Shown piece after piece: positions 8,263 to 32,979 of a stretch of DNA of 64,000 nucleotides. A model generated the notes under the pieces. It did not search any database and was not told the DNA's origin. It saw only the letters and a program-made list of their open reading frames with translations. Source of the DNA: Aquisalimonas sp. 2447 (GTDB lineage: Bacteria; Pseudomonadota; Gammaproteobacteria; Nitrococcales; Aquisalimonadaceae); the NCBI RefSeq assembly GCF_012044895.1, contig NZ_CP050695.1, positions 898,501 through 962,500 of the forward strand. Reading direction: 5' to 3'. Every line of letters starts with the position of its first letter. The first letter of the stretch is position 1. A program made the position numbers and the translations under genes.

Positions 8263-8405
8263 AAGAGTGATTCTCGACAGCGCCAGTGCCCCACCGACAG
8301 ATGGACAGATTCTACAGCAGGACCTGTGGCGCGCCGACTAATTGTCCTGTAAAGCGCACTCGTCGGATTTTACCTTGCCTTAACCGCGACCTCTGAAATT
8401 GCGAG

Positions 8406-10249: not shown

Positions 10250-10417
10250 GTCATGTCCGTGATGACGCAGATCAGGAACGGCAAACAAACTTGAGCGACG
10301 TCATCAGGCGGAATCGTGCGGTCACGCGGCTTGCAAGGAAGCCCTCCTCAAATTAGCTTTCCTGAGGCCGACCTTCACCGCCCCTGGGAGGGAATGAAGA
10401 GCCCCGGTGCACACACA

Positions 10418-10693
10418 TCAAATGGGCTCGCGCTCACTATCCTCGGCGAGGTCGTCGCGCAGTTCCTCAATGGACGGGAAATCCTCTATGCAAGGTAGAT
10501 CATCCCAGCCACCCCAAAGCGGTCGCGAAGAACCATGCCAGCCCTCCCCTAGCCTCTCGCGGATAACAGTAGCGATCCGTTCGCCTTCCGATAGGTTCTC
10601 GATTCGTGCCTTGGCACGGAGCTGTGAATCCAGCCCCTTCCCGCGCAAGGTGCCAGCTGCCGCATAACCGCTGTATGCTTGCCGACTTTGCAT
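10418..10693 (-). CDS. Small hypothetical protein, uncertain
   Basis: An open frame of about 91 residues whose C-terminal half looks protein-like: ENLSEGERIATVIRERLGEG followed by an acidic tail, SIEELRDDLAEDSEREPI. I do not recognise the family. The N-terminal half is low in structure, and the ATG at 10693 has no strong ribosome site; upstream in-frame starts exist up to 10825 but would overlap the MFS gene on the other strand. It could be a small acidic regulator or a chance frame. It sits between IS1380 and the divergent MFS gene. Confidence 0.35.
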   Translation of the reverse strand: MQSRQAYSGYAAAGTLRGKGLDSQLRAKARIENLSEGERIATVIRERLGEGWHGSSRPLWGGWDDLPCIEDFPSIEELRDDLAEDSEREPI

Positions 10694-10729
10694 GGCTTCG
10701 TACGGACACCCCTGACGAGTAGTCGATCC

Positions 10730-12034: not shown

Positions 12035-12069
12035 GCGGCGCCGGACTCACCCTGACTGCGATGACACTG

Positions 12070-12106
12070 TTGCTTGCGGACGAAGGTCTGCTATGTTGTC
12101 TGACAA
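12070..12106 (+). promoter_or_regulatory. Promoter with FCD-GntR-type operator upstream of the ydiJ-TRAP operon
   Basis: A sigma-70-like promoter, TTGCTT at 12070-12075 and TATGTT at 12092-12097 with a 16-base spacer, is overlapped on its downstream side by the perfect palindrome TTGTC-T-GACAA at 12096-12106. This is the type of half-site used by FadR/FCD GntR repressors. A GntR gene of that family lies in the operon at 18125-18856, so autoregulation and repression in the absence of substrate are likely. Confidence 0.7.
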
Positions 12107-12142
12107 ATAACAGTGACTGGCACGACCTGAACCGGTGGCTCC

Positions 12143-15100
12143 GTGATCCTACCCCCGACAACACCGAAGAGCGAAAACCGCAGCGCTGCGCGGGTGTTTG
12201 CCGATGCGCTCCGGGAGGAGGCATTCACCGGTGAGATCTCAACCGAGGTCTCGTCACGCCTTCTTGCGGCCACCGACAACAGCATCTACCAGATCATGCC
12301 TGCGCTCGTGGTCTTCCCTCGGGACGGCGACGATCTTGACCGCATCGCTGCGGTGGCAGCGAGACCTGAACACCACACCATACGGTTTTCACCCCGCGGC
12401 GGCGGCACCGGCACCAATGGCCAATCACTGACCGAGCACGTCGTCATTGACACAAGTCGTCATACAAATCGGATTCTTTCGATCGAGCTAGAGCGTCTCA
12501 GAGCCACCGTTGAGCCCGGGGTGGTCCTCGCACAGCTCAACAGTGCACTGGAAGACGCTGACCTGTTCTTTCCTCCCTCTACTTCAACCGCCACCCGCGT
12601 CACCATCGGCGGCATGGTCGGCACTGACGCCTGTGGAAAAGGGTCTCGCGTCTACGGGCGCACTGGCGACTACATCGAATCCCTGGAATTGCTGCTACCC
12701 GATGGCCGCCAGATCACCTGTCGTCGCTACAGCGCCGAGGAACTCGATACCAGCCCAGACAACGCGAGCCTCGCCCTTGCTCGCGAGGTAAGGAACATTC
12801 TGCAAGGCGCAGAGACCGGCATTCGCACCCAGTTCCCGAAACTCAGCCGGTCTCTGACGGGTTACAACCTACGGGAAGCCCTCGGGCACGATGGCTCTAT
12901 TGACCTCGCCCGTCTTGTTACCGGAGCAGAAGGAACGTTGGGGCTCGTGCGCTCGATCACGGTTCGCCTCGAGCACAGGCCACAGCACAAGGCGGTCGTT
13001 GTAATTCGGTACCACAATTTCGATGAGGCATTGCGCGATGCCCAGTGGCTTCTTGAATCGGATCCCACAGCGATCGAGACACTCGATCATCGGCTTTATG
13101 GGCTGGCAAAGCGAGACGAGGGCTGGCATCTGGTGGCCGATGCCATGCAGGCCGACGATGCCGACAACCACGCTGTGACAACGAACTTTGTCGAGATCAG
13201 TGCCAGCACCAGCGGCGAGCTGGAAACCCGCCTACAGGAACTCGCGGAGAGATTGCGCGAGCGCGGAAGCAGTCACTCCATTACACGTGACCCGGTGCAG
13301 ATGGCAGAGCTGTGGAATATTCGCTCGCGCAGTGTGGGCATGCTTGGTCGCACCAGCGACACTCGCAAACCGATCCCTTTCGTCGAGGACACGGTTGTCC
13401 CGCCGGAGCATCTCGCAGACTACATCCGCGAATTTTGTGCGTTGCTGGATGATCATGGCGTCGACTACGCGATGTTCGGACACGTGGACGTGGGTTGCCT
13501 GCACGTCCGTCCCGCCCTGGACATGGCTTCCCCGGACGATGCCCGGCTGGTCCGCAGCATCAGTGACGAGGTTGTCGCCCTGGTAAAGCGTTACCGCGGG
13601 CTGCTGTGGGGCGAACACGGCAAGGGGTTCCGGGGCGAGTACACTCGGGAATTCTTCGGGGAATCCCTCTATCCCGTGCTCGGTCGGATCAAAGCCGCGT
13701 TTGACCCCAACAACAGAATGAACCCGGGCAAAATCGTCGACCCCATCGCCGGAGCCCAAGGGGTCATTGAGATCGACCAGGCACCGCTTCGCGGGGAACG
13801 TGATGCCCGCATCGGCGGAACCACGCGATTGGCGTGGAACGACGCCATCGCCTGCAACGGGAACGGGGTGTGTTTCGATTGGTCCTTTGCGAACACGATC
13901 TGCCCCAGCTACAAGGTGACACGCGACCGGGTCCACTCCCCGAAAGGCCGTGCGACGCTCCTGCGCGAGTGGCTCAAGCAACTCGCCGACAACGACCTGA
14001 CCCCGTCGGCAATCCCCTCTCGCCGCCCGCGCCGTCGACGCGCATCGCACCAGGAAGATTTCTCGCATGAAGTGTTCGATGCCATGTCGGGTTGCCTGGG
14101 GTGCAAGGCCTGCGCAACCCAGTGTCCGGTCCATGTCGATATCCCGGAGATGCGATCGCGTTTCCTGGAGGCCTATCATCGCGTCTACCGGCGGCCGTTG
14201 CGCGACTATGCTCTCGCAGGGACGGAGCTCGCTGCCCCTTGGCTTGGTCGTGCGCCGGCGCTCGGTCGGGTCATGCTGCGCAACAGAGGTGTACAGCGCT
14301 GTCTGAAGGCCTTCGGAATCAGCGATGCTCCTGCGCCGGCTTCGCCCGGGGGACTTGTCGTCGCGAAGCAGCACGGCTATCAGGTAGCCAGGTCCTGGCA
14401 ACAGGCCAAAGCACGACTCGCATCCTCCGGGAGTTGCGTTGCGCTGCTACCGGATGCCTTCACTGCCTACTACGAAAACGAGACACTGCCTGCGGTGTGC
14501 CGCCTCGTGGAGGCCAACGGGTATGAGCCTGTGGTGCTCCCCTATCGGCCGTCGGGGAAGGCCCTGCACGTCCACGGTTTCATGGACGGATTCCGAGGGA
14601 CTGCCGGGAAACTGGTCAGCGCGCTGGAATCGGTGCTGGAGACTCACCGCCCCGTGGTGGCCATCGAAGCCAGTGTCGGGTTATTCCTGCGGGACGAGTG
14701 CCGCGGGGTAACCACCGGCAAACGCCCTCTGCCCATCTGGCTCTTACCGGAGTGGCTCGCCCGGCACAGTGCAGCGTCGGCGCCGACCACCACCGCCCTC
14801 AGCGACAGCCCTTATCACCTGTTCCTCCACTGCACGGAGAAAACGGCAGTGCCCGCCGTGGGCAACCTTTGGGCGGAGGCCTTCCAGCAGGCAGGGCTTC
14901 CGATGCAAACCGTGAACAGCGGCTGCTGCGGCATGGCCGGCGCGTACGGTCACCAGAGCGAACACTACGAGCGCTCACACGCGCTCTACAACGCCAGTTG
15001 GGCGCCAACCGTCAACCAGCAACACCCAGACCGGATTCTGGCCACAGGCTTTTCCTGCCGATCTCAAACCGAACGATTCGGGGGCATACGACCACGCCAC

Positions 15101-15196
15101 CCGGCGGTTGCCCTCGCCGATGCTTTCAAGGAGAACGCGGGGCGCGCTCCCGCCGCGAATAAGCGAAATGCCAGGGACCATGCGGCCAGCGGCTGA
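12143..15196 (+). CDS. ydiJ: YdiJ-type FAD/Fe-S D-2-hydroxyacid dehydrogenase
   Basis: A 1017-residue fusion with the same architecture and nearly the same length as E. coli YdiJ (1018), which oxidises D-2-hydroxyglutarate. The FAD-binding FAD_binding_4 domain includes PRGGGTGTNGQSLTEHVVID, followed by the FAD-oxidase C domain. A ferredoxin-like section has CLGCKACATQCPVHVDIPEM, and the C-terminal CCG-type domain contains SGCCGMAGAYGH. Electrons should pass from the 2-hydroxyacid via FAD and Fe-S to the quinone pool or a carrier. The GTG start at 12143 gives the conserved N-terminus with TDNSIYQIMPALVVFPR. It is the first gene of an operon with a TRAP transporter, suggesting import and oxidation of a D-2-hydroxyacid or related acid. 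Confidence 0.9.
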   Translation: MILPPTTPKSENRSAARVFADALREEAFTGEISTEVSSRLLAATDNSIYQIMPALVVFPRDGDDLDRIAAVAARPEHHTIRFSPRGGGTGTNGQSLTEHVVIDTSRHTNRILSIELERLRATVEPGVVLAQLNSALEDADLFFPPSTSTATRVTIGGMVGTDACGKGSRVYGRTGDYIESLELLLPDGRQITCRRYSAEELDTSPDNASLALAREVRNILQGAETGIRTQFPKLSRSLTGYNLREALGHDGSIDLARLVTGAEGTLGLVRSITVRLEHRPQHKAVVVIRYHNFDEALRDAQWLLESDPTAIETLDHRLYGLAKRDEGWHLVADAMQADDADNHAVTTNFVEISASTSGELETRLQELAERLRERGSSHSITRDPVQMAELWNIRSRSVGMLGRTSDTRKPIPFVEDTVVPPEHLADYIREFCALLDDHGVDYAMFGHVDVGCLHVRPALDMASPDDARLVRSISDEVVALVKRYRGLLWGEHGKGFRGEYTREFFGESLYPVLGRIKAAFDPNNRMNPGKIVDPIAGAQGVIEIDQAPLRGERDARIGGTTRLAWNDAIACNGNGVCFDWSFANTICPSYKVTRDRVHSPKGRATLLREWLKQLADNDLTPSAIPSRRPRRRRASHQEDFSHEVFDAMSGCLGCKACATQCPVHVDIPEMRSRFLEAYHRVYRRPLRDYALAGTELAAPWLGRAPALGRVMLRNRGVQRCLKAFGISDAPAPASPGGLVVAKQHGYQVARSWQQAKARLASSGSCVALLPDAFTAYYENETLPAVCRLVEANGYEPVVLPYRPSGKALHVHGFMDGFRGTAGKLVSALESVLETHRPVVAIEASVGLFLRDECRGVTTGKRPLPIWLLPEWLARHSAASAPTTTALSDSPYHLFLHCTEKTAVPAVGNLWAEAFQQAGLPMQTVNSGCCGMAGAYGHQSEHYERSHALYNASWAPTVNQQHPDRILATGFSCRSQTERFGGIRPRHPAVALADAFKENAGRAPAANKRNARDHAASG

Positions 15197-15260
15197 AGTA
15201 GCCGCCGGACCGTGGCCGTTCAAAATACGATGACATAATCGAAAGTGAGGAGGCTCAATC

Positions 15261-16250
15261 ATGCGGTTCACAACATCAATTCTTGCCAGCGCCACTGCAG
15301 CCGCTCTGCTTGCAGCAACGGCCGCGAATGCGCAGACCACGCTGCGGCTGGGATGGACGACGTCTGACAGCGAAACGGATCCCTACGCCATTGCCGCACG
15401 CTATTTTGCCGAAGAACTGGAGAACGAAGCCCCGGGCGCATTCGATGTGCGCTACTTCCCGAGCAATGAACTCGGAGACGAATCCGAAATGCTGCAAGGC
15501 ATGCAACTCGGAACACTCGATGCTGGGGTCATTACCGGCACCCAGATTGCAACCGTCTCCTCTGCCTTTCAGTTGAACGATCTGCCGTTCCTCTATGAGG
15601 ACAACGCCCAGGCACAGCGTGTTCTGGACGGTGAAGTCGGCGAGACGATGCTTGCCAGCCTCGAGCCCGAAGGCATCGTGGGCCTGGGGTTTGCCGAGGC
15701 CGGCTTCCGGCACACGATTAACAATCGTGGCCCGATATATAGCCCGGACGACATCAGCGGGCTGCGCATGCGGGTACAACCCAGCGATCTCTTCATCGAC
15801 AGCTTCCGGGCCATCGGCGCAAACCCGGTGCCCATGGCGTGGAGCGATGTCTTTACCGCGGTACAGCAGGGAACCGTTGATGGGCTCGAGATCCCGCTTG
15901 CTGTGATCTATGCCAACAACTACCCGGACGTGACGGACTATCTCTCACTCACCAGCCACAGCTACAACGCGCTCGGGCTGCTCGTCTCCAAACAGACCTA
16001 TGACGGGTTGAGCGAAGAGCATCAGGAAGCGATGCAGACCGCCGCACGAAGCGCCATTGAACGCCAGCGCCAGACAGTGGCGGAAAATAACGATCAAATC
16101 GCCCAGAACATCGAAGATGCGGGCATGGAAATCAACGAAATCGATGACGTCGAAGCCTTCCGCGCTCTGGTCGAGGGTGTCTACGACGAATACCGCGATG
16201 CAATCGGCGGTGACCTGCTCGATATGGCACTGGAACAGGTCTCCGAGTGA
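15261..16250 (+). CDS. dctP: TRAP transporter substrate-binding protein DctP
   Basis: A 329-residue periplasmic binding protein with a signal peptide ending at ANA-QTTLRLGW. The DctP fold is clear: the stretch GLRMRVQPSDLFIDSF contains the conserved Arg that binds a carboxylate, followed by WSDVFTAVQQGTVDGLEIPL. It should capture a carboxylic acid in the periplasm and deliver it to DctQM. A GAGGAGG ribosome site precedes the ATG. It lies 64 bases after the YdiJ-type gene and is followed by a hairpin before dctQ, as is common where the binding protein must be made in excess. Confidence 0.93.
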   Translation: MRFTTSILASATAAALLAATAANAQTTLRLGWTTSDSETDPYAIAARYFAEELENEAPGAFDVRYFPSNELGDESEMLQGMQLGTLDAGVITGTQIATVSSAFQLNDLPFLYEDNAQAQRVLDGEVGETMLASLEPEGIVGLGFAEAGFRHTINNRGPIYSPDDISGLRMRVQPSDLFIDSFRAIGANPVPMAWSDVFTAVQQGTVDGLEIPLAVIYANNYPDVTDYLSLTSHSYNALGLLVSKQTYDGLSEEHQEAMQTAARSAIERQRQTVAENNDQIAQNIEDAGMEINEIDDVEAFRALVEGVYDEYRDAIGGDLLDMALEQVSE

Positions 16251-16255
16251 TCATG

Positions 16256-16290
16256 CTCCCCACGGCTTCGGTGCGCCGGGGCCGTGGGAG
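16256..16290 (+). promoter_or_regulatory. Intercistronic hairpin between dctP and dctQ
   Basis: CTCCCCACGGC at 16256-16266 pairs with GCCGTGGGAG at 16281-16290 with one bulged C, followed by TTTG. It may stabilise dctP mRNA or partly stop transcription, giving more DctP than DctQM. Confidence 0.55.
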
Positions 16291-16327
16291 TTTGTAGTCC
16301 GCCGCCGTGCAAAGGAGAGATCCTGAC

Positions 16328-16834
16328 ATGCTGCGCCGTGGCCTGGAAGCCATCAGCCGCTGGAGCGCCAACGTCACCGCTGTGGTCGCCTGCATAACGG
16401 GCATCACCATGGTGATCACGCTTCTCGTCGGAATCTTCTTTCGTTACGTCATGCAGGCCTCGCTCTCCTGGCCGGAAGAGGTCGCGCTGCTAACTTTCAC
16501 ATGGACAGTTTTCCTAACCGCCAGTCTCGGCGTGCGTGAGGATTTCCACGTGCGGGTCACGCTGTTGCGTGACGCCCTCCCCAACAACGCAGCCATCTGG
16601 CTTGAGCGCCTCCTGCTCGTTGGTATCGGCGGATTCGCGCTCGCCATGTTCTGGTACGGCTGGGAGTTTGCCGAGTTCACGCAACGCCAGGTTTCGCCGG
16701 CCATCCGCTACCCACTCTGGATCCGTAACGCCGCTGTCCCAGTAGCGGGAGCTCTAATGCTCCTTCATGTGGCCGCTCGACTCTCGAGGCCGGCCTGGCA
16801 CCGCCCCGACGCGAACGTGGAGACGTCGCTATGA
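16328..16834 (+). CDS. dctQ: TRAP transporter small membrane subunit DctQ
   Basis: A 168-residue protein with four membrane segments. The conserved DctQ core appears as SWPEEVALLTFTWTVFLTAS, followed by the GVREDFHVRVTLL segment. It pairs with DctM to form the membrane part of the transporter. The ATG at 16328 has AAGGAGAG placed correctly upstream; an in-frame ATG at 16307 lies before that site and is unlikely. Its 3' end overlaps dctM by four bases. Confidence 0.92.
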   Translation: MLRRGLEAISRWSANVTAVVACITGITMVITLLVGIFFRYVMQASLSWPEEVALLTFTWTVFLTASLGVREDFHVRVTLLRDALPNNAAIWLERLLLVGIGGFALAMFWYGWEFAEFTQRQVSPAIRYPLWIRNAAVPVAGALMLLHVAARLSRPAWHRPDANVETSL

Positions 16835-18111
16835 GCATGGTGGCCATCGTGATGGTCGTCGGCCTGCTATTGCTTCTCGCGATCGGAATGCCGATTGCTT
16901 TTACTCTGGGGATACTCGCACTGACAGGCCTCTTCCTGACAGATACGAATCCGCTCATCCTGGGCCAGCGCCTGGTCGCTGGAACCAACGTCAACAGCCT
17001 GCTCGCGATCCCGGGGTTCATCCTGGCCGGAGACCTAATGAGTTCCGGTGGGCTTTCACGACGGCTCGTCAAGATCGCATCGACCATCATCGGGCATCTG
17101 TCCGGCGGGCTGAGCATGGCAACCGTTGGTGCGGGCACATTCTTCGGGGCGATCTCGGGTTCGGCTCCGGCAACGACCGCGGCGATCGGCTCCGTCATGA
17201 CCGACGAATTGGAGAAACGCGGCTATGAACGGGGCTATGCAGCAGCGCTCGCAACGGCCGTTGGACCACTGGGACAGATGATTCCTCCCTCGATTCCCAT
17301 GATTATCTGGGGAGTTCTTTCGGAAGAATCCATCGCCAGACTTTTCCTTGCCGGCGTCGTTCCGGGCTTGATCGCGGCAAGCGGTTTTCTGGTCGTCAGC
17401 TACATCTATGCACGAGTCCATGGGGTGCCTCGTGTAGAACGCGCCACGGTTGGCGATATCGCCCTCGCGCTGCGGCAGGGTGTTTGGGCACTCCTTGCTC
17501 CCATCGTCATTCTCGGGGGCATTTACGGCGGCGTGTTTACGCCGACCGAGGCGGCTATGGTTGGCGCGCTGTACAGTTTCATCGTGGGTGTGTTCATCTA
17601 CCGAGAGATCGGGTGGCGGGAACTCCCCGGGATTCTGCTTCGCTCCCTGCGCACAAGTGCCATGATCATGTTCATCATCGCGACTGCGTATGCCTTCGCG
17701 TGGGTCATCGCGAACGAGCAGATTCCCGCTCAACTGGCTGCCAGCATGCTCGCCATCACGGACAATCCGCTCCTTCTTCTGCTGCTTCTGAACATTATGT
17801 TGCTTCTGCTTGGGGCCGTGATGGACAACATCTCGGCGATGGTCATACTGAGCAGCGTGCTCATGGCCGTAGGCGCCCAAATCGGACTCGACCCGATCCA
17901 GCTCGGCGCGATGGTGGTCATTAACTTCGCCGTGGGTATGGTGACCCCTCCTCTCGGCTACTCCATCTTCGTCGGAGCGTCCATAAGTGGGTTGCGTATC
18001 GAGACCGTCGCCCGTCACCTTTGGCCATTTCTCCTCGTCCTCCTGGCGGTCATCGCCATCGTTGCATACGTGCCGTGGGTCACCCTGTGGCTACCGGGCT
18101 TGTGGGATTGA
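16831..18111 (+). CDS. dctM: TRAP transporter large membrane subunit DctM
   Basis: A 426-residue, twelve-segment permease, the sodium-coupled translocating subunit of a TRAP transporter. Family stretches are present: FFGAISGSAPATTAAIGSVM in the first half, GIYGGVFTPTEAAMVGALYS in the middle, and INFAVGMVTPPLGYSIFVGA near the end. The start overlaps dctQ (ATGA type), so translation is coupled. Length is normal for the family. Confidence 0.94.
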   Translation: MSMVAIVMVVGLLLLLAIGMPIAFTLGILALTGLFLTDTNPLILGQRLVAGTNVNSLLAIPGFILAGDLMSSGGLSRRLVKIASTIIGHLSGGLSMATVGAGTFFGAISGSAPATTAAIGSVMTDELEKRGYERGYAAALATAVGPLGQMIPPSIPMIIWGVLSEESIARLFLAGVVPGLIAASGFLVVSYIYARVHGVPRVERATVGDIALALRQGVWALLAPIVILGGIYGGVFTPTEAAMVGALYSFIVGVFIYREIGWRELPGILLRSLRTSAMIMFIIATAYAFAWVIANEQIPAQLAASMLAITDNPLLLLLLLNIMLLLLGAVMDNISAMVILSSVLMAVGAQIGLDPIQLGAMVVINFAVGMVTPPLGYSIFVGASISGLRIETVARHLWPFLLVLLAVIAIVAYVPWVTLWLPGLWD

Positions 18112-20349: not shown

Positions 20350-21954
20350 CTACTCAGCGGGTTTGAGCGCGTATAGGCTCTCGTCCTGATGCCACGGCAG
20401 CAGTCGGTCGATGGCCTCGCCGGTTGTCGCGCCCGGCAGGTTCTTTAACACCTCGAGCAGGTACGCGTAGGGCTCCAGGCCGTTGATCTTGGCCGTCTCG
20501 ATGACGCTGTAGATCGTGGCACTGGCGTGCGCACCCCGCGGCGTCTGACTGAACAGCCAGTTTTTGCGCCCCACCACGAACGGCCGAATGGCGTTCTCCG
20601 CGGGGTTGTTGTCCAGCGGGATGCGGCCATCCTCCAGGAAGCGGATGAGCCGGGGCCATTGGCTGTTGAGGTAGTGCACGGCCTTGCCGATGGCGCTCTT
20701 CGGCGGCACCTTCTCCAGGGACTGGTCAAGCCACTGGCGCAGATCCTCGATCAGCGGCCGGCTGTGCGTGGCGCGCAGGCGTTCACGCTTCTCAACGGGC
20801 AGGCCCTGGGCTTCGCGCTCCACCCGGTAGAGCTTGCCGATGGACGCCAGCGCCCGGTCGGCCTTGCCGGTCTTGCCCTTGGGCTGGACCTTCTGGGCCT
20901 CTTTGAACTTGCGGCGCGCATGCGCCCAGCACCCGGCATGGGTGATGGCATTATCGCGCACGACCTGGGCATAGCCCTCGTAGCCGTCGGTGAGCAGGAT
21001 ACCACCATAGTCATCCAGCAGGCGCCGCGGGACCTGGCCCGAGCGGCTGGGATCGTAGTCGAACAGCACCACCTCGGCTCCGGGCGGCCCGCCGCGTTGG
21101 ACCCACATGTACGAGGTGCTGGAGGCGGCCCGCCCGGGCTCGGTGTTCACCTGCACGGTGGTCTCATCCATGTGGATGAGCTCCGCACTGTGCAAATGGG
21201 CGCGCATGCGCTCGGCCAGTGGCGCGAGCAACGCACCCAGGTCCACCATCCAGCGGGCGAGCGTGTTCCGTGGCAGCTCCAGGCCCAGTCGTTTGAAGAC
21301 CTGCTCCTGGCGGTACAGCGGCAGCGCGTCCTGGTACTTGGCGGTGGCGATATAGGCAAGCAGTCCGGGGCTCGCGTTGCTCTTCGGCAGCGGCTGCGGC
21401 GGCAGATCGGCGATCTGGACACCGTCCTCGCAGGCCCGGCAGGCGTACTTGATGCGCACATGGCGCAGCACCTGGATCTGGGCCGGGATGATGTCGAGCT
21501 GCTCGGTGACCTCTTCGCCGATGCGGGTGAGCGCACCGCAGCCGCAGGCACACTGCTGTTCGTCCTCGGGGAGATCGTGGACGATGTCCACGCGAGGCAG
21601 CTCCGGCGGCAGTGGGGCGCGCCCACCCCGGCGACGCTTGCCGCCACTGGGGGCCGGCTGGTTTTCCTCTTCCGCCTCGGCAGTCTCACCTGACTCGGCG
21701 GGCTCTTCCACCAGGCTCTCGGCCTCGTCGAAGAACAGGTCCTGCTGCTTGATGCTGTACTTCTCGGTGGAGGGGCCGAAGCGGTTGTCCAGCAGCAGCC
21801 GGATTTGCTCGAACAGCGAGCGCTTCTCTGCCGCCCACGCGGCCTCCTTCTCGGCGAGTTGGGCCTGGAGGCGTTCGACCAGAGCGCGCTGCTCATCGAG
21901 CTCGCGCTGGAGATCGGAACTGGATGGCAACGTGTTGGTATCGGCCCGTTTCAT
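20350..21954 (-). CDS. tnpC: IS66 transposase TnpC
   Basis: A 534-residue DDE transposase. It has an N-terminal coiled coil (about residues 14-50), a zinc-finger region with CACGCGALTRIGEEVTEQLD and CRACEDGV, and the DDE domain with HMDETTVQVN, LLTDGYEGYAQVV and the later IPLDNNPAENAIRPFVVGRK, which holds the final acidic residue. Length is normal for IS66 TnpC. It is the last gene of the tnpABC set. Confidence 0.95.
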   Translation of the reverse strand: MKRADTNTLPSSSDLQRELDEQRALVERLQAQLAEKEAAWAAEKRSLFEQIRLLLDNRFGPSTEKYSIKQQDLFFDEAESLVEEPAESGETAEAEEENQPAPSGGKRRRGGRAPLPPELPRVDIVHDLPEDEQQCACGCGALTRIGEEVTEQLDIIPAQIQVLRHVRIKYACRACEDGVQIADLPPQPLPKSNASPGLLAYIATAKYQDALPLYRQEQVFKRLGLELPRNTLARWMVDLGALLAPLAERMRAHLHSAELIHMDETTVQVNTEPGRAASSTSYMWVQRGGPPGAEVVLFDYDPSRSGQVPRRLLDDYGGILLTDGYEGYAQVVRDNAITHAGCWAHARRKFKEAQKVQPKGKTGKADRALASIGKLYRVEREAQGLPVEKRERLRATHSRPLIEDLRQWLDQSLEKVPPKSAIGKAVHYLNSQWPRLIRFLEDGRIPLDNNPAENAIRPFVVGRKNWLFSQTPRGAHASATIYSVIETAKINGLEPYAYLLEVLKNLPGATTGEAIDRLLPWHQDESLYALKPAE

Positions 21955-21999
21955 GTGGGTAATTGTACCAAAACGCCACCGGTGCGGCGAGCAAAAATT

Positions 22000-22356
22000 T
22001 CATCCAACCGACTGAAAATGCAACGCTTTGTGCGGCTGCATACGGGTGATGTCGATGCCGTCGAGCAACCAGTTGAGCTCCTGGCCCGAGAGCGTGAGCC
22101 GCTCCCGCTCACCGCAAGCCGGCCACTTGAACCGCTCCTGCTCGAGGCGTTTGTACCAGACCACAAAGCCGTTGCGCTCCCAGAACAGGATCTTCACCTT
22201 ATCCCGCGCCCGGTTGCAGAACACGAACACCGCCGCGGTGAACGGATCGCACGCCATGACCTCCTGGACGAGCAGCGACAAACCGTCAATCGACTTGCGC
22301 ATGTCCACGGGCTCGCGGCACAGATACACCGCCACATCCGTCCCGGGCCGGATCAT
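22000..22356 (-). CDS. tnpB: IS66 accessory protein TnpB
   Basis: A 118-residue IS66 Orf2-like protein with the family hallmark REPVDMRKSIDGLSLLVQE, followed by VFVFCNRARDKVKILFWERN. It is needed with TnpC for IS66 transposition. It overlaps tnpA by four bases. Confidence 0.95.
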   Translation of the reverse strand: MIRPGTDVAVYLCREPVDMRKSIDGLSLLVQEVMACDPFTAAVFVFCNRARDKVKILFWERNGFVVWYKRLEQERFKWPACGERERLTLSGQELNWLLDGIDITRMQPHKALHFQSVG

Positions 22357-22559
22357 GCCACCACCTCCACGGCCACGAACCGTGCGGGACGGTGACGCTC
22401 CGGAACCGGAACTCCGGCCTCATGCAGCCGGCGCTCCCAGTCCATCAACTCGGCGAGCGAGACATCCTGGCGCCGCGCATACTCACTCAGCGACAACCCC
22501 AAGGCATGGGCGTGATACAAATGACCCAGCCAGCGGGCGCGTACCGGGGATAACCACAT
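22353..22559 (-). CDS. tnpA: IS66 accessory protein TnpA
   Basis: A 68-residue protein with a helix-turn-helix-like segment, LGLSLSEYARRQDVSLAELM, typical of the short TnpA proteins of IS66 elements. It is the first gene of the element and overlaps tnpB. It is shorter than the ~100 residues of some TnpAs, but short forms are common. Confidence 0.85.
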   Translation of the reverse strand: MWLSPVRARWLGHLYHAHALGLSLSEYARRQDVSLAELMDWERRLHEAGVPVPERHRPARFVAVEVVA

Positions 22560-23413: not shown

Positions 23414-25297
23414 TCAAAGTAACTTATCGAAAAGCGCTTTCCACCTTTCTATATCGTCATCCTCAACGTATCGGCTCGTGTTCGCTAGAAGTTTATCTTT
23501 GACGCCCAGAGCTAGCTTAACCTTCCACCCATCCTCCATGGCGAAGCCTTCTGTTTCAGCCCAATTCTTTATTTGAGGAACTATTGGTTTCTTTGGATCA
23601 TGCACGTCTTCAAACTCTTCTTCGGCACGTCGCTCCATTCGGTCGAGCACTTGAATCATCAGACTGGTAGGTAGGAGGTCCTCGATTTCCGTACCTTTAA
23701 GGTCGGAAAACACTGCGTCAGTTTCAATTATCTTGTCCTTGTCATTAGAATAGAGATCCCCTTGAAGGGATTTGATAGTCTGCTTTCCAGCCGCGTCACT
23801 GTCTAGCAACACCTTCGGCAGGTCGTCATCTCTTCCAGACAAGATAGATGCGATAATCTTTGCGGTTTTGGCGCCACCGGACGGGGGAAAAACTAATTCG
23901 AACTTGGGTGCGATCTTTTCCTTGCCTATCAAAATACTTTTGATCGCGGTAAGGTAATGTTGATCTGATGGGCCTTCAACGATGATTGGCTGGCAGCCTA
24001 GAAGCAAACTTTCTGAAACAGTCAAGTTCAAGGCAGAATGAACCGCGTAGGTTGCCCCATTCTCTTTCAATCCTTTGGCTCCTCTCGTGACTCGTAGATC
24101 ACTTGACGCCTCTGTGCAGCCATCATCTCCCACGAATACTTTTCGGACCCGATCCAGACGGTCGGCGTCGATCATAAATGGCGAGTGCGTTGTAAAAATT
24201 AACTGGTTAGTTTCGGCTAGATTGTTGAAGAACGCTGTTAAATCTCGCTGTGCGAGTGGATGCAACGAATGCCCTGGCTCATCAAGAAGAACGACTGCCT
24301 CTTCATGTGCATCCTCGCTTTCATAGGTAAAGACTAGAAAGAAGCTCAGAAACCATTGAAGTCCAGCGCTCCTGTTCTCAAGTTCGATTTCCTCAGATCG
24401 GCGATCATCCGCGACCAAGATTCGAAAGTAGTTTCCATCAGCAACCAGCCGAAACCGATAGTTACCTTGTTTCCACCAGTCCGAGAAGGCTGTCGTCAGC
24501 TTAGATGATGCTGATTGCAACAATGCCAAACGCTCACGAAGTTTCGCGTCGTCTTCTTTTATCTCATCGTCGGTCTTGTTTGTAACGCTTCCGACCTTCT
24601 CTCCCTTTTGATTTACTCTCTCTACAACACCTGTTGAACGCGCTAGCTCTAACATTTCGTCAGCACTCAGGCTCACGAGGTCAAACAACACTTTAAGAGT
24701 CCGAGTCTTTGCAGCTTCTCGCGCCCCCAGATCATCGCGTTCCATGTTATCAACAACATGTGGTAAATAAATTTGATCGTCTAGATTTCCATAATTTGAA
24801 TAATATACGAAATATGGCAACCGACCCTTGAAACGTTGCCAAAGGCTCGGCCCCTTCTTCGGCTCTTCCCCTTCAGTTTCGGCCGGCTTTTCCAGTTCTG
24901 GGTTAAATGTATTTTTAAGGTCTACGTCTGGGAAATCAGGGAATTCGAAGCCGTACTGCCCCGCGAAATTTCGACGAGCAATGATGGTCGCTCCCACTTT
25001 AGCTTCGATACCGTAGCTGTTAGCAACTTCAATATCGGATTCATCCATTTCAAACTTGCAGTAAATGAATCGATGTGAACTTGGCTCATTGCGCATTTCC
25101 GCGTATCGACTTCGTGGCATGTCATCAAGAAGATTAATTCTACCGGATGCAGTTGGGTTAAATTTCCAAAGAGGCAGTAACAGATTTGTTTTTCCAGCTT
25201 CGTTTTCACCAATCAGGGCGGTTACATCGGAGACATCAATCCAACCACTGTCAGCGATGGATCGGAAATTGGTTACGCGGAATTGTATTAATTTCAT
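23414..25297 (-). CDS. OLD-family ATPase/TOPRIM nuclease, probable integron cassette gene
   Basis: A 627-residue protein with an ABC-type ATPase and a TOPRIM nuclease domain, as in OLD nucleases and GajA. Walker A is GENEAGKT at residues 30-37, and Walker B/D-loop is VVLLDEPGHSLHP at about 330-343. The TOPRIM acidic motifs are IIVEGPSDQHYL (about 435) and LLDSDAAGK (about 494). Such proteins cut DNA and often act in phage defence. No UvrD-like GajB partner follows, so it is not a Gabija pair. It is clearly AT-richer than its neighbours and starts 74 bases past an attC site in the same orientation, so it is probably the second cassette of the integron. No clear attC follows its stop. Confidence 0.87.
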   Translation of the reverse strand: MKLIQFRVTNFRSIADSGWIDVSDVTALIGENEAGKTNLLLPLWKFNPTASGRINLLDDMPRSRYAEMRNEPSSHRFIYCKFEMDESDIEVANSYGIEAKVGATIIARRNFAGQYGFEFPDFPDVDLKNTFNPELEKPAETEGEEPKKGPSLWQRFKGRLPYFVYYSNYGNLDDQIYLPHVVDNMERDDLGAREAAKTRTLKVLFDLVSLSADEMLELARSTGVVERVNQKGEKVGSVTNKTDDEIKEDDAKLRERLALLQSASSKLTTAFSDWWKQGNYRFRLVADGNYFRILVADDRRSEEIELENRSAGLQWFLSFFLVFTYESEDAHEEAVVLLDEPGHSLHPLAQRDLTAFFNNLAETNQLIFTTHSPFMIDADRLDRVRKVFVGDDGCTEASSDLRVTRGAKGLKENGATYAVHSALNLTVSESLLLGCQPIIVEGPSDQHYLTAIKSILIGKEKIAPKFELVFPPSGGAKTAKIIASILSGRDDDLPKVLLDSDAAGKQTIKSLQGDLYSNDKDKIIETDAVFSDLKGTEIEDLLPTSLMIQVLDRMERRAEEEFEDVHDPKKPIVPQIKNWAETEGFAMEDGWKVKLALGVKDKLLANTSRYVEDDDIERWKALFDKLL

Positions 25298-25370: not shown

Positions 25371-25445
25371 ACCTAACGGCCAGCGTAACCGGCGCCCAAC
25401 GGAACGCAGCGGAGTTGGGCGTCCGAGGTGACGCTGTTGTTAGAC
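25371..25445 (-). other. attC: Integron attC site
   Basis: Read on the minus strand, the site starts with GTCTAAC (25445-25439) and ends with GTTAGGT (25377-25371), matching RYYYAAC and GTTRRRY. Nested complementary arms AGCGT/ACGCT and CGCCCAAC/GTTGGGCG lie between, around a short variable loop. The 75-bp size, arm order and mismatched spacers are those of a folded attC substrate. The stop codon of the upstream PIN-like gene is inside the first core, as is common for integron cassettes. Confidence 0.88.
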
Positions 25446-26213
25446 AAGTCTTGCCAACTCCTCTGGTGTAAGGAACTGGACGCCATATCGCTGTTCCAGC
25501 CAGGTTCTGTTCGCGGCCGAGAACACAGAGTTATTGCCAGCAGCTTTGGCGATATCTCGCGTACACACATAATCATTGCCATACGCATAATGTGCAGATA
25601 TGGCATCACCATCCGCCCACTCAGCGACGGCTTTCGCTATGGGACCCTCTTCTGAGTCGGGGGCCGCCGAGATACCAGCGTGCCATGGCTCATGGGAAGA
25701 GGCGTACTCCTGTCCGATTGCTTTCAATTGGCTAATCCCGCAATCCTGCGCTTCGATATCCCTTCCGATTGTCCCGAACCGTTCGGCAATATCGTGGGTC
25801 ACAGGGATAAACCACTCGGATTTAAGGTCCGGATTCTTGGCCGTTGCTAACCTCGTGCAGTGAAGAATCTTGAATCCGATCTTTTCAGCATCTGCCCAAT
25901 GCTTCGAAAGGTAATGATTATTGCCGGGATGGGCATTTGGATCAGGGCCGATACCTATCGAAAAGGCTAGCGAACCGTCTGGTTGCTCTTTTTCTTCAAA
26001 GTTGACCTTAGCTTTGTACTCGGCCAGAAACTGGTGTCGCCCAGATTTCTTAACAGCTTCCAGCGTAAACACCGTTTCGGCAAGATACGCCTCAATAGTT
26101 CCTTGAGCTATCGCGTCATGGATCCGACGGAACTCAGCGATCGCGCTTTCGTTTGGAAAGGAATCGGGCGACGAGACGATCCGCCACACATTGGAATCAA
26201 ACGTAACCTTCAC
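25440..26213 (-). CDS. PIN-like nuclease, first integron cassette gene
   Basis: A 257-residue protein with GTG as the likely start: it lies three bases after GGGAGGGG, and the next residues, KVTFDSNVW, begin a PIN-type fold with its first catalytic Asp. The C-terminus matches the last PIN strand and helix: DYVCTRDIAKAAG, SVFSAANRTWLEQRYGVQFL. PIN domains are metal-dependent RNases, common as toxins. No antitoxin is visible in the cassette, so it may be a standalone nuclease or a defence gene. The longer frame to 26366 would read through the integron core site and is unlikely. The stop is embedded in attC. Confidence 0.72.
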   Translation of the reverse strand: MKVTFDSNVWRIVSSPDSFPNESAIAEFRRIHDAIAQGTIEAYLAETVFTLEAVKKSGRHQFLAEYKAKVNFEEKEQPDGSLAFSIGIGPDPNAHPGNNHYLSKHWADAEKIGFKILHCTRLATAKNPDLKSEWFIPVTHDIAERFGTIGRDIEAQDCGISQLKAIGQEYASSHEPWHAGISAAPDSEEGPIAKAVAEWADGDAISAHYAYGNDYVCTRDIAKAAGNNSVFSAANRTWLEQRYGVQFLTPEELARLV

Positions 26214-26228
26214 TGCCCCTCCCAATTT

Positions 26229-26235
26229 GTCTAAC
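26229..26235 (-). other. attI: Integron attI core (first cassette junction)
   Basis: GTTAGAC on the minus strand matches GTTRRRY. It lies 16 bases before the GTG start of the first cassette gene and between that gene and the divergent integrase gene, where the attI insertion point belongs. The rest of the 26214-26370 region holds no gene; I could not assign a cassette promoter with confidence. Confidence 0.65.
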
Positions 26236-26370
26236 AGTGAATGGATCGCCGTCACGATGATTCGATCACCGTGAAGGCGACATATCCACCGTGACGGGCC
26301 TCGGCCCTTCGATTTTTGCTCGTTCTTTCGGGAGGTTACCGCAGGAGGGTCATGCGGGGCCACCAATCAC

Positions 26371-26416
26371 TTGACGGCGCGTTTTCGCGCCGTAATCATG
26401 CTGTATATGCACACAG
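26371..26416 (+). promoter_or_regulatory. intI promoter with LexA (SOS) box
   Basis: TTGACG (26371-26376) and TAATCA (26393-26398), 16 bases apart, form a plausible promoter. CTGTATATGCACACAG at 26401-26416 is a close match to the LexA box (CTG-N10-CAG), just downstream and 23 bases before the ATG at 26440. The spacer is a perfect hairpin (ACGGCGCG-TTTT-CGCGCCGT). LexA control of integron integrases is established in other integrons. Confidence 0.8.
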
Positions 26417-26473
26417 TTGGCACGGAGGCCACAAAAGCAATGAACACGCCGGAGCGCCCGCTTCGACTGCGGG

Positions 26474-27664
26474 ATGTCGTTAGGGATGTTCATGCGCACG
26501 CGGCGCTACAGCCCGAGAACCGAGAAGACCTACTGGTACTGGATCCGGTATTTCATTCGGTTCCACAACATGTCCCACCCGCGTGAACTCGGCGAGGCCG
26601 ACGTACAGGCGTTCTTGACCTGGCTTGCTGTAGAGCGAGGGGTTGCCGCCTCGACACAGAACCAGGCGTTGAACGCCTTGGTTTTCCTGTATGGGAAGGT
26701 TCTGGAGAGTCCGCTTGGCGATATCGGTAACGTTGTCCGCGCTCAACGCCCACGCCGATTACCAACCGTATTGAGCCACGGAGAGGCCATGGCCGTGATT
26801 GGGCAACTCCAGGCTCCCTACGATCTCATGGCGTCCCTGATGTGCGGTGCAGGCCTCCGGGTGAGCGAGGTGGCACGCCTCCGGGTGAAGGACCTCGACT
26901 TTGATCAGCGCATGATCACGGTGCGCAATGGCAAGGGTGGCAAGGATCGGACGACGCTATTACCAGCAACGTTGGTCGAACCATTGCGAACCCGTGTTTC
27001 CGGGATTCGTGCGCGTCATCCGTGTGAGGCCGATAGGGATTCGGTGCCCGTGAGCCTCCCGGACGCGTTGATGCGAAAGTATCCCAACGCCGGCAGGTCG
27101 GTGCAGTGGAAGTGGCTTTTCCCCTCGGACGCGCTGTGCCAAGACCAGTGGGGCAACATCGTTCGTCATCACGTCCACGTCAGCGCCGTGCAGAAGGCGG
27201 TTAGCAAGGCCGTGAAACTCTCTGGATGTTCGAAGCCAGCCGGGTGCCATACCTTTCGGCATAGCTTCGCAACGGAACTCCTCAAGCGGGACACGGACAT
27301 CCGAACTGTCCAGGAGTTGCTCCGTCACAAGGACGTCAAGACGACACAGATCTATACGCATGTCGTCGGTCAGGCGTTCGCAGGCGTCGGCAGCCCCCTT
27401 TCTGAACCTCGTGCTACACGATTGCCGAGCCGAGAGCGGTCATTGATGTACATAGCGCGACCGTCCGCTCCGGGTCGACTCCCGCCCTTCAATTTCACGA
27501 TGTCGTTAACGCCAGAACGTAGCGCTCCTGCCCGGTCGTCTCCACAGCCCCGGGCCGTGCGGCACGAACCTCTTTCAGGGCCTGCTGAGGCGGCATGCCT
27601 CGCTCGACCAGGATGCGGCAGGCAGCAAGCCCCGTGCGCCCGAGCCCGCCCAGGCAGTGGATGA
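26474..27664 (+). CDS. intI: Integron integrase IntI (N-terminus frameshifted, C-terminus extended)
   Basis: A tyrosine recombinase with the integron-specific insertion VSLPDALMRKYPNAGRSVQW, which only IntI proteins carry. The catalytic R-H-R-Y set is in GLRVSEVARL, CHTFRHSFATELL, LRHKD and IYTHV. The family N-terminus MNTPERPLRLRDVVRDV is encoded at 26440-26490 in another frame and joins MRTRRYSPRTEKTYWYWIR after a one-base shift, so the native start is probably 26440. The normal C-terminus ends soon after GVGSPLS, but here the frame runs about 75 residues further, 170 bases into the opposite phosphatase gene. Function may be impaired, or one of these changes may be a sequencing error. Confidence 0.88.
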   Translation: MSLGMFMRTRRYSPRTEKTYWYWIRYFIRFHNMSHPRELGEADVQAFLTWLAVERGVAASTQNQALNALVFLYGKVLESPLGDIGNVVRAQRPRRLPTVLSHGEAMAVIGQLQAPYDLMASLMCGAGLRVSEVARLRVKDLDFDQRMITVRNGKGGKDRTTLLPATLVEPLRTRVSGIRARHPCEADRDSVPVSLPDALMRKYPNAGRSVQWKWLFPSDALCQDQWGNIVRHHVHVSAVQKAVSKAVKLSGCSKPAGCHTFRHSFATELLKRDTDIRTVQELLRHKDVKTTQIYTHVVGQAFAGVGSPLSEPRATRLPSRERSLMYIARPSAPGRLPPFNFTMSLTPERSAPARSSPQPRAVRHEPLSGPAEAACLARPGCGRQQAPCARARPGSG

Positions 27665-28064
27665 CGATGCGCTCGCCCCGGTCGAGGCGGTCATAGAGCG
27701 GGTCACGCCATATTTGCCACTGCGCCTCCCAGACAGCATCCGGGGTGCTGCAATCCATGATCGGCAGATGCAGCCAGCCGGCCTCACCGTAGCGGGCGCG
27801 GGCCCGCTCCCCCAAATCCTGGGCCTGGTAGTCGATCAACTCGTGGAGTTCCATGAGCGTGATCAGACACCGGGTACCCCAGGCATCCAGAGCCTGGAGA
27901 TCGTGCTCCAGGTTACGCACCCAGGGATGCCGGTTCCCCGGACCGATCTTGCCAGGGCACAGCGTCATGCCGATGACGACACCGCCGGGTGCGTCCACTG
28001 TAGCAATCCGCAGTGGCGAAGAGTGGCTGGTGGCAACGCCCTGGTCGAGGTGGTTCGTGGACAT
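27495..28064 (-). CDS. Tyrosine/dual-specificity protein phosphatase
   Basis: A 189-residue phosphatase of the CDKN3/dual-specificity type. The active-site loop is HCLGGLGRTG (Cys at about residue 135), the CX5R motif, preceded by the general-acid region with LPIMDCSTPD. It should remove phosphate from Tyr or Ser/Thr residues or from a small phosphorylated molecule. I used the ATG at 28064, preceded by GGGAGGG; the one at 28085 is too far upstream. It follows the ADP-ribosylglycohydrolase gene by 17 bases in one transcription unit. Its 3' end is overlapped on the other strand by the extended integron integrase frame. Confidence 0.85.
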   Translation of the reverse strand: MSTNHLDQGVATSHSSPLRIATVDAPGGVVIGMTLCPGKIGPGNRHPWVRNLEHDLQALDAWGTRCLITLMELHELIDYQAQDLGERARARYGEAGWLHLPIMDCSTPDAVWEAQWQIWRDPLYDRLDRGERIVIHCLGGLGRTGLAACRILVERGMPPQQALKEVRAARPGAVETTGQERYVLALTTS

Positions 28065-28081
28065 ACTGCTCCCTCCCTTGA

Positions 28082-28858
28082 TCACGCGGCGCGAGCAGCC
28101 GCTTCCTGGTAGAACCGCTCAATCAATTGGACTTGCTGAGGGTCGAGTCGCTCCATCACCGCCTCGCGGATCCACGCCGGGACCCCGAAGCGTGCCTCGG
28201 CAATACCGCCAGCAATGCACGCCAGGGTGTCGGTGTCCGCATCGAGCCCGATGCACACCTCCATGACCTCCTCGAACGAGGTCGCCTCGCAGGCGATACG
28301 GATCGCAGGCGGCACCGTGCCCTGGCAGATCTCGTTGTGGCGCAAGGTGCGCTGGATGACCGGGATCGACTCATCCAGGGCGTAGCTGTGGTGCTCGCGC
28401 ACTGCCTCCAGGATCGCCTCGCCGGTGGCCCCGGTGCGGGCGAGCACGATGGCGTGCGCGGTCGCCTGCGCACCGCGGATGCCCTCCGGATGGTCATGGG
28501 TGACAGCGGCGGAACGCTCGGCCTCCCGGAGTGCGTCCTCCAGCGAGCCGGTCCAGAACCCGATGGGGCTCACCCGCATGGCGGAGCCGTTGCCGAAGCT
28601 GTTGTACGGGCCCCTATCCGGGTCATCCCCCCACTGCATGAACCGAAGCCCCCAGGAATGGTTGCGGTTCGCCTGGTAGGCGTCGCGGTAGGCCGTCGCG
28701 TAGTCGACGCCGTCGAGCAGACAGCGGGCGGTGGCCGAGGTCAGTACCGTGTCGTCGGTGTAGTGGCTGTGGGGCTTGATGAGCGGCGTCCCCGGCACCG
28801 CCGGCGGGCCGAACTCGTGGATGGATCCGATGATGTCGCCGGCAATCGCTCCGAGCAT
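28082..28858 (-). CDS. ADP-ribosylglycohydrolase (DraG/ARH family)
   Basis: A 258-residue ADP-ribosylglycohydrolase. Metal-binding motifs are TDDT (residues 34-37) and GLDADTDTLACIAGGIAEA (about 205-225), with GNGSAMRVSPIGFW and the HDHPEGIRGA motif between them. It should remove ADP-ribose from a target protein, nucleic acid or small molecule, with two Mg ions. It is the first gene of a two-gene unit with a tyrosine phosphatase. A 26-bp palindromic sequence lies about 100 bases upstream. No matching ADP-ribosyltransferase is seen in the window. Confidence 0.9.
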   Translation of the reverse strand: MLGAIAGDIIGSIHEFGPPAVPGTPLIKPHSHYTDDTVLTSATARCLLDGVDYATAYRDAYQANRNHSWGLRFMQWGDDPDRGPYNSFGNGSAMRVSPIGFWTGSLEDALREAERSAAVTHDHPEGIRGAQATAHAIVLARTGATGEAILEAVREHHSYALDESIPVIQRTLRHNEICQGTVPPAIRIACEATSFEEVMEVCIGLDADTDTLACIAGGIAEARFGVPAWIREAVMERLDPQQVQLIERFYQEAAARAA

Positions 28859-31900: not shown

Positions 31901-32233
31901 TCACGATGGGTCAAGCGCGACCGGTGGTGGAGGCGTGCCGTCGAGGAGCCAGTTGGCGTAGTGGGTGGATAGTTTTGTATCCGCCACGACGGTGAGGACC
32001 TCGCGCTGGAGCCACTGGCTAACGGCAACGCGGCCGGGGTCGTTGTGCTCATCGAGGCGGTGCTGCAGCCAGCGCCGCACGGCCTGATGCGCCTGGGGTG
32101 TTTCGGGCTCAAGACCCAGGCGGATGGCGAGGTAGCTGGATAGCAGTGTATCCAGGGTGACGGTGGTGCGCCGTTCACCAAGGCGCAGATGGAAGCGCGT
32201 GTTGCGCGACAGGCCGGGTTCCCAGGTGTTCAT
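31901..32233 (-). CDS. Third, small gene of the IS21 element, unknown function
   Basis: A 110-residue protein whose ATG overlaps the istB stop by four bases, so it is coupled to the transposition genes. It starts with TRFHLRLGERRTTVTLDTLL, which could be a beta-strand plus helix DNA-binding or ribbon-helix-helix-like fold, followed by a helical region and a Pro-rich tail. IS21 elements normally have only istA and istB. The product may be an accessory or regulatory protein, or an unrelated passenger. I do not recognise the family. Confidence 0.65.
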   Translation of the reverse strand: MNTWEPGLSRNTRFHLRLGERRTTVTLDTLLSSYLAIRLGLEPETPQAHQAVRRWLQHRLDEHNDPGRVAVSQWLQREVLTVVADTKLSTHYANWLLDGTPPPPVALDPS

Positions 32234-32979
32234 TGGTCGGCCTCCGCGATGGTTGTGGTCTGGCGCATGGACGCGCCTTTCATGGGCAGGCGGTGGGCGT
32301 TGTGCAGCAGCCGGTCGAGGATGGCGTCGGCGAGCGTGGGCTCGCCGAGGTAGTCGTGCCAGTGCTCGACGGGGAGCTGGCTGGCGATGAGTGTCGATCG
32401 CAGGCCGTGGCGGTCCTCGATGAGCTCCATGAGGTCCTGGCGCTGGCTGGCGGTCAGCGGCGCGATGGCCCAGTCGTCAAGGATGAGCAGATCCGTGCGT
32501 GCGAGCTGCTGCATCAGCCGCGGGTAGGAGCCGTCGGCGTGGGCGATGTGGATGGCCTCGAGCAGCCGCGGGAGGCGGACGTAGCGCGTGGACAGGCCCT
32601 GACGACAGGCCTGGTTGCCGAGCGCGCAGGCGAGGTAGGTCTTGCCGGTGCCGGTGGGGCCGGTGAGCAGCAGGTTCTGCTTGTGGTGGATCCACTGGCA
32701 GGAGCCGAGCTGGGCCATCTGCGGGCGCTGCAGCCCGCGGGCGTGGCGGTAGTCGACGTCCTCCAGGCAGGCGCCGGGGATACGCAGCCGGGCGGCCTTG
32801 AGCAGCCGCGTCAGTCGGCGGTTGTCACGGGCGAGGATCTCGCGGTCGAGCAGCAGCGCAAGGCGTTCCTCGAAGGCGAGCTCCTGCGTGGCCGGTTGGG
32901 CGATCTGGTCTTCGAGGGCCTCGCGCATGCCGGTGAGCTTCAGCGCCTGGAGTTTCTCCAGAGTCGGTTCGTTGAGCAT
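32230..32979 (-). CDS. istB: IS21-family helper ATPase IstB
   Basis: A 249-residue AAA+ ATPase. Walker A GPTGTGKT is at residues 107-114, Walker B is DLLILDDWAIAPL, and the sensor region is STLIASQLPVEHWHDYLG. It differs clearly from the first IstB at 500-1240, so the two elements are separate members of the family. It starts 23 bases after istA and overlaps the small third gene. Confidence 0.95.
   Translation of the reverse strand: MLNEPTLEKLQALKLTGMREALEDQIAQPATQELAFEERLALLLDREILARDNRRLTRLLKAARLRIPGACLEDVDYRHARGLQRPQMAQLGSCQWIHHKQNLLLTGPTGTGKTYLACALGNQACRQGLSTRYVRLPRLLEAIHIAHADGSYPRLMQQLARTDLLILDDWAIAPLTASQRQDLMELIEDRHGLRSTLIASQLPVEHWHDYLGEPTLADAILDRLLHNAHRLPMKGASMRQTTTIAEADQ

Follow-up and report, generated by a model that had tools for sequence, protein, structure and literature searches.

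A probable sedentary chromosomal integron in decay, with nuclease cassettes, in Aquisalimonas sp. 2447

The locus described here lies in a stretch of 64,000 nucleotides, which we call the window (bases 898501-962500 of the 3.97-Mb genome of Aquisalimonas sp. 2447, a single contig), and combines an integron integrase gene (intI) on the plus strand with an attI site, a putative PIN-domain nuclease gene closed by an attC site and a putative OLD-type nuclease gene on the minus strand. A first-pass annotation had proposed a small chromosomal integron with SOS-type control, whose cassettes run divergently from intI, and this is the arrangement found:

26474 to 27664, plus strand: intI, longest open frame, 396 residues; profile TIGR02249, 385.1 bits (cut-off 265); IntI clade (100/100)
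26440 to 26490, plus strand: predicted original intI start (ATG 26440) and first 17 codons or so, out of frame with the rest; alignment with three congeners (G001, G002, G003)
26371 to 26399, plus strand: predicted intI promoter TTGACG-17-AATCAT, 9 of 12 matches
26401 to 26416, plus strand: LexA-type box CTGTATATGCACACAG, a perfect CTGT-N8-ACAG
26229 to 26235, minus strand: attI core GTTAGAC, the attI side running upwards from 26235; by inspection, and congener homology ends there
25377 to 26234, minus strand: cassette 1, 858 bp between two G/TT cut points, G+C 52.8%
25440 to 26213, minus strand: putative PIN-domain nuclease gene, 257 residues (774 bp), GTG start; AlphaFold model and fold matches
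25371 to 25445, minus strand: attC, 75 nt, GTCTAAC ... GTTAGGT; covariance models R2 (34.3 bits) and R1 (61 bits)
23414 to 25297, minus strand: gene of putative cassette 2 (cassette start 25376), OLD-type ATPase-TOPRIM nuclease, 627 residues; PADLOC and PDB 6p74

We read this locus as very probably a sedentary chromosomal integron in decay, equipped with nuclease cassettes and present in four of the five genomes of the genus compared. Sequence comparison shows four components of such a system: an integrase belonging to the canonical IntI clade, a LexA box at the promoter of its gene, an attI breakpoint common to four species and one attC closing cassette 1. It thereby supports the proposed IntI clade, attI, attC and SOS-type control; the integrase is not intact, its frame being broken near codon 17 and running on at the 3' end. 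The cassettes would have entered at attI by IntI-mediated recombination with the folded attC, separately in each species, and a promoter in the attI/intI region would drive their leftward transcription.

The insertion point is delimited by the congeners. Three of them were aligned across attI and intI over the stretches fetched for each (G001 at L038, G002 at L034, G003 at L030), the fourth, G004, entering the comparison with two short loci only. The blastn homology begins at window base 26232 in G001, 26233 in G002 and 26232 in G003, and hence stops in all three within 3 nt of the G/TT cut predicted between 26235 and 26234, a gapped alignment of G001 reaching 3 bases further. Past the junction, G001 has an open reading frame of 80 codons followed by an attC model match (R2, described below) of 23.4 bits, and G002 and G003 have other open reading frames. 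The same attI with different DNA beyond it is the pattern to be expected if each species had received other cassettes at a single attI. The GTTAGAC core that had been put forward as attI is thus the place where congener homology ends, and the predicted attI lies beside intI with its cassette junction at the G/TT. In this locus a natural attI insertion point is cleanly displayed, common to four species with different DNA beyond, and integrases are seen decaying while cassettes persist.

The other end of cassette 1 is a complete attC, as annotated, with the stop codon of the PIN gene (25440-25442) inside its first core. Two covariance models were applied to it: R1, made from 10 sites, includes this attC and two other sites of the same genome, so that its 61 bits here and its scores there are not independent; R2 was built against this circularity from 14 sites of G001 and G002 only, and its default structure holds only 7 pairs, which makes it mostly a sequence profile. 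The held-out R2 finds the site with 34.3 bits (E 1.5e-6), its only other match in the window reaching 11.9 bits (E 0.96), and the site is, from its sequence, an attC with paired R''/R' and L''/L' boxes. A simple consensus attC finder proved unspecific, with five other rows in the window and two matches in two shuffled 64-kb sequences (one strand), so that the attC call relies on the covariance model and the congener comparison. Downstream of the OLD-type gene, between 22300 and 23420, R1 with its filters off gives 2.8 bits at best and no recognisable attC; as judged by these models, cassette 1 is the only one closed by an attC of its own.

In a tree of 19 recombinases (midpoint root, with a long-branch warning for the outer rows) the window IntI falls inside, not outside, the 14-row IntI clade, in a four-row group (100/99) with the proteins of G013, G010 and G018, to which it is 70, 64 and 63% identical. 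The alignment contains the insertion particular to IntI that the first-pass annotation had pointed out, and by inspection it retains the catalytic R, K, HxxR, H and Y. Over 310 codons compared with G013, 187 differences at third positions stand against 70 at first and 57 at second positions, an excess which indicates that the frame was long under selection.

Both ends of the gene depart from an intact frame. The profile match ends at 27403, and beyond it the frame runs on for 86 residues, in part antisense to the following gene. Near 26490 the window has one extra base relative to all three congeners in the DNA alignment, G003 reading through the intI-start stretch in a single frame; this puts the first 17 codons or so, counted from ATG 26440, in another frame, and an unbroken frame from the start codon, as expected of a functional integron, is absent from the sequence as assembled. 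The copies of the congeners are worse than that of the window: intI homology covers residues 7-55 in G001, 3-65 in G003 and, close to the start of a contig in G002, residues 7-47 and 37-108 in frames that differ, so that the gene is truncated or in pieces in each of the three. The broken start would leave an integrase that is absent or N-terminally truncated, and the array would probably be frozen or nearly so. Xanthomonas integrons with decayed intI are described in PMC12444791, and what that source reports of them resembles the present case in a genus-wide platform, lineage-specific loss of intI and retention of cassettes; the Xanthomonas arrays are often longer, whereas in the present genus intI remnants occur at several sites per genome.

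The LexA box announced upstream of intI was confirmed just past the promoter-like pair, and CTGTATATGCACACAG is the sole perfect CTGT-N8-ACAG of the window. The three closest long IntI orthologues, those of G013, G018 and G010, also carry perfect boxes (CTGTATAAATGAACAG, CTGTGTATCCATACAG and CTGTACATATGCACAG), and in all four genes the box precedes the homologous codon by 88-91 nt. A lexA gene is present in all five genomes of the genus, preceded by CTGT-N8-ACAG in G001 and G003 and by CTGT-N8-CCAG in the genome of the window. The intI gene is thus one with a box at its promoter in a host that has LexA, the binding of LexA being predicted. Among the 12 intI loci compared at the order level, four have a perfect box, namely the three orthologues and a copy with stops (L127). 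The IntI of G010 (L132, G010:C111) has a perfect box, yet four residues are missing from it, the catalytic Arg of HxxR among them, so that a perfect box is no proof of an active integrase. The decayed congeners have no perfect box at the intI promoter, G003 having a deletion of the segment and G001 and G002 an imperfect version; one perfect match in G002 (L034, 898) is on the cassette side of the junction. These boxless promoters fit the correlation between lost LexA control and integrase inactivation stated in PMC3108266. Compared with the LexA-controlled intI genes considered in that source, the window has the same box at the intI promoter and differs in keeping it perfect despite a broken frame.

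Several observations weigh against a decayed, LexA-controlled integron with two cassettes. Internal ATG codons at 26474, 26486 and 26492 could start an integrase short by about 17 residues, and the frame break could stem from a base-calling error in the assembly. The window IntI departs alone from otherwise invariant IntI columns at three positions, within the range of 0-10 seen across 12 IntI rows, which does not prove a loss of activity. Eight of the 12 order-level intI loci are without a perfect LexA box, among them that of a partial relative 67% identical, and promoter-like pairs are near background, 3 being found in the region scanned against 1.0 expected. Finally, with no attC behind it, the OLD-type gene would owe its cassette status to position, orientation and composition.

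The first of these points leads to an alternative in which the integron is still active, IntI starting at one of the internal ATG codons (26474-26492) and the missing N-terminal stretch being dispensable. Its remaining frame is open over 300 codons with the catalytic residues kept, and its LexA box is perfect, in contrast to the three congeners with their truncated or fragmented intI. However, the other aligned IntI rows retain the first helix, the changes found in the window alone include G284R in the LLGH motif, and the congeners have lost intI. We consider continued activity unlikely and retain the reading of an integron in decay.

The gene of cassette 2 encodes a protein with an AAA_15 match and, by inspection, TOPRIM motifs (E, DxD). 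It matches 116 PADLOC defence models, the best being AriA (93.4 bits) and Old (92.6 bits), and PDB 6p74 (E 1.5e-6, 30 bits). From its motifs it is an ABC ATPase N-terminus joined to a TOPRIM C-terminus, of unsettled subfamily since AriA scores as well as Old. It shares these domains with the OLD nucleases and differs from them in reaching only 30 bits with 6p74 and in its length. Four plasmid relatives are 46-55% identical and have 659-700 residues as annotated, and compared with that of a Paracoccus plasmid the window protein is short by 80 residues, 72 of them in one run. This is in line with a tendency of defence genes in integrons to be shortened, which PMC12409362 mentions.

The G+C content is 46.3% in cassette 2, compared with 62.6% in the window, and rises near 23400, just past the stop codon of the OLD-type gene, which is why we read it as a cassette whose 3' end would have been lost. 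The proposal of two cassettes consequently holds for the first, closed by its attC, and only in part for the OLD-type gene, which has no recognisable attC; from the sequence, only cassette 1 is complete and the OLD-type gene is a truncated cassette. The OLD-type gene could instead be a neighbour brought beside the attC by another event, the IS66 genes at 20350-22559 being near. The lack of a downstream attC would be explained in this way, and the four plasmid relatives lie among ordinary plasmid genes, on plasmids not scanned for attC. Against this, the gene begins 79 nt past the attC cut point in the orientation of a cassette, the low G+C stops where the gene does, and another OLD-type gene of the genus precedes an attC model match in both the genome of the window and G003. 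Such an origin is in our view distinctly improbable, and a truncated cassette is preferred. A DUF2726 gene beside the OLD-type gene was not found in the four congeners and gave a weak match in one other of the 14 genomes of the family, so that it does not serve as an anchor for fixing the edge of the integron.

The other OLD-type gene belongs to a wider set of integron traces. In the genome of the window, R1 finds attC in the window and at no fewer than three other places (179.9, 183.7 and 608.7 kb), 150 of 4611 candidates having been scored; R2 gives these three 66.8, 40.8 and 19.7 bits (E 0.021 for the last). Before the 179.9-kb attC lies the second ATPase-TOPRIM gene (G000:C1:178211-179971, L026 18211-19972), 24% identical to the OLD-type protein of the window, with a stop at residue 206 and no intI alongside. 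Its counterpart in G003 is open, 86% identical, and stands beside an intI remnant and before an R2 site of 25.5 bits. These two loci indicate that two different OLD-type genes occur in integrons of the genus.

The protein of cassette 1 has no match in Pfam (E up to 10), NCBIfam, PADLOC or PHROGs, nor by sequence in the PDB. Among the 14 sequences of its alignment (A5), one reaches no better than E 0.086 with PIN_3 and one reaches 0.0058 with DUF5691; D6, E46, D201 and D220 are invariant in all of them. Its AlphaFold model (pLDDT, the predicted local distance difference test score, 90.7) has structural matches in the Pyrococcus protein 1y82 (Z 9.1), VapC4 (8.9), HARP RNase P (8.8) and further VapC chains. 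Foldseek alone finds nothing at E <= 0.001, the best being PRORP at 7.3e-3, and nothing useful among viral models. We read the protein, from the model, as a PIN nuclease having the PIN fold with an acidic tetrad. It resembles the VapC toxins and the HARP minimal RNase P enzymes in its fold and acidic residues, and differs in its 257 residues, in the lack of a PDB sequence match and in the lack of an antitoxin gene in the cassette, whose 858 bp are filled by the 774-bp gene and the attC. It adds to the integron cassette pool a PIN nuclease that no family model covers.

Relatives of this PIN gene occur in several bacterial phyla. Among the 14 genomes of the family it occurs only in that of the window. 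A genome scan found 14 loci, the best in an Akkermansiaceae (Verrucomicrobiota) metagenome-assembled genome (MAG) at 46% identity, followed by Aurantibacter aestuarii (Flavobacteriaceae, 40%), a Neomarinimicrobiota MAG (39%) and an alphaproteobacterial MAG (35%). By tblastn, relatives 27-31% identical occur in 9 of 72,556 plasmid records, from Bradyrhizobium and Acetobacter; no phage record and one viral contig matched. In four of six plasmid records the relative, itself among transfer and insertion sequence genes, has MazF, HipA, AbiEii or restriction genes a few genes away; of the other two, one is without such genes and one has a methyltransferase and a GIY-YIG gene. As a separate observation, G002 carries near its integron remnant a PIN-type gene of VapC size, preceded by a small open reading frame (L034 2324-2755, G002:C189, by inspection).

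The PIN protein would act as a metal-dependent ribonuclease and the OLD-type protein as an ATP-regulated DNA nuclease, and both would most likely be single-gene functions of phage defence or growth arrest. A defence role of the cassettes is plausible from their sequences: of the defence cassettes first suggested, the PIN fold and the OLD-type protein have been found, and the anti-phage action stays an inference. They could also serve in RNA turnover, plasmid exclusion, DNA repair or addiction, a possibility of real weight, if somewhat less favoured. The PIN protein is without a match in any of the four collections searched, PADLOC included, and its fold is as close to the tRNA-processing HARP enzymes as to VapC; on the other side stand the 116 defence models matched by the OLD-type protein, the best at 93 bits, and the toxin, abortive infection or restriction genes beside the PIN relatives in the four plasmid records. 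Integrons as defence biobanks are reported by Darracq et al. (2025, Science), Kieffer et al. (2025, Science) and Getz et al. (V. parahaemolyticus), as cited in PMC12409362. According to that source these have in common with the window an intI, an attI, attC sites and single-gene cassettes, some of theirs being anti-phage; the window differs in having one complete and one truncated cassette, a broken intI start and a defence role that is only predicted. Since the banking of defence genes by integrons is already published there, the window integron is not a new kind of system.

The PIN gene also appears as a cassette elsewhere. In Aurantibacter (L052) it occupies 3382-4146 between repeats at 3164-3361 and 4156-4287, in a series of repeats between genes of the same strand. 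A third covariance model, R3, made from seven attC-like repeats of L052, finds there those seven, three more complete sites and one cut at the contig end, and on another contig of the same genome (L078) six complete sites and one cut, spanning 9996-17341 after a recombinase gene (8092-9270). At L051 a weak R3 site of 23.2 bits lies one gene past the PIN gene, in a genome with two IntI genes above cut-off. At the 15 PIN loci, R3 finds sites in L052 and L051 only, with none in L053, L054 or the other 11, and R1 finds none in any; across these loci and six plasmid stretches the consensus finder gives one match (L064). The PIN gene is shown to be a cassette in the window; the case for a cassette is strong in Aurantibacter and weak at L051, and the other 13 loci give it no support.

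The Aurantibacter recombinase lacks the IntI insertion in the alignment. Within NCBIfam it is matched best by the XerA_Arch "tyrosine recombinase/integron integrase" model (222 bits, cut-off 220), and TIGR02249 gives it 210 bits, below the cut-off of 265, as it gives below-cut-off matches in all 14 control genomes. In the midpoint-rooted tree it belongs neither to the IntI clade nor to the three Xer rows but takes a place between them, together with a Neomarinimicrobiota row. At E 1e-40, 37 of the 60 genomes given as Aurantibacter kin, itself included, have relatives of it. Of the 39 matches, 20 loci were scanned; nine of these, counting Aurantibacter, show an R3 site at E < 0.001, and 11 show none; by their coordinates the sites at the nine are all downstream on the recombinase strand. 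The loci bearing arrays include L078, L052, L138, L141, L144, L156, L158 and L159, with attC-like sites of about 130 nt. Larger stretches of six of the 20 loci hold 15, 9, 6, 1, 0 and 0 R3 sites (E up to 0.1, one opposite-strand echo omitted). All 17 recombinases that could be extracted from the 20 loci lack the IntI insertion, one being cut short by a stop, and an R3 site of 31.7 bits lies downstream of the Neomarinimicrobiota recombinase (L081).

This recombinase with its array looks, from sequence, like an integron-like platform. The PIN family might then consist of solo cassette-borne nucleases moved between IntI/attC integrons (the window, perhaps Verrucomicrobiota) and the Flavobacteriaceae platform, a tentative idea which we hold to be rather doubtful: in the tree the Aurantibacter recombinase is not joined to IntI to the exclusion of Xer, and 13 of the 15 PIN loci have no attC model match near the PIN gene. 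One survey (PMC9024848) mentions Salinibacter as the bearer of a complete integron in the Bacteroidetes, and no description of flavobacterial integron-like arrays was found among the papers listed, most subscription journals and all preprints being outside the scope of the search. The additional domain of IntI was reported necessary for integron integrase activity by Messier and Roy (2001), according to the title cited in PMC2426708. The PIN gene points to a flavobacterial cassette platform whose recombinase is without that domain, and this link is the freshest lead of the study.

As to the surroundings of the integron, a scan of the window with Rfam gave no family and ARAGORN no tRNA. The locus is flanked by IS66-family transposase genes (20350-22559) and, by inspection, an IstB-like ATPase gene (32230-32979). 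Between 27495 and 28858 lie dual-specificity phosphatase and ADP-ribosylglycohydrolase genes, which the intI frame enters antisense, and 27515-28200 (688 bp) recurs elsewhere in this genome (L005) at 82% identity. A further locus of this genome (G000:C1:604311-608790, L032) holds an intI remnant and one attC, with a flank common to G001 (90%) and G003 (87%), and would be an ancestral integron site. At the equivalent locus, G001 has 14 attC model matches between 1663538 and 1676468.

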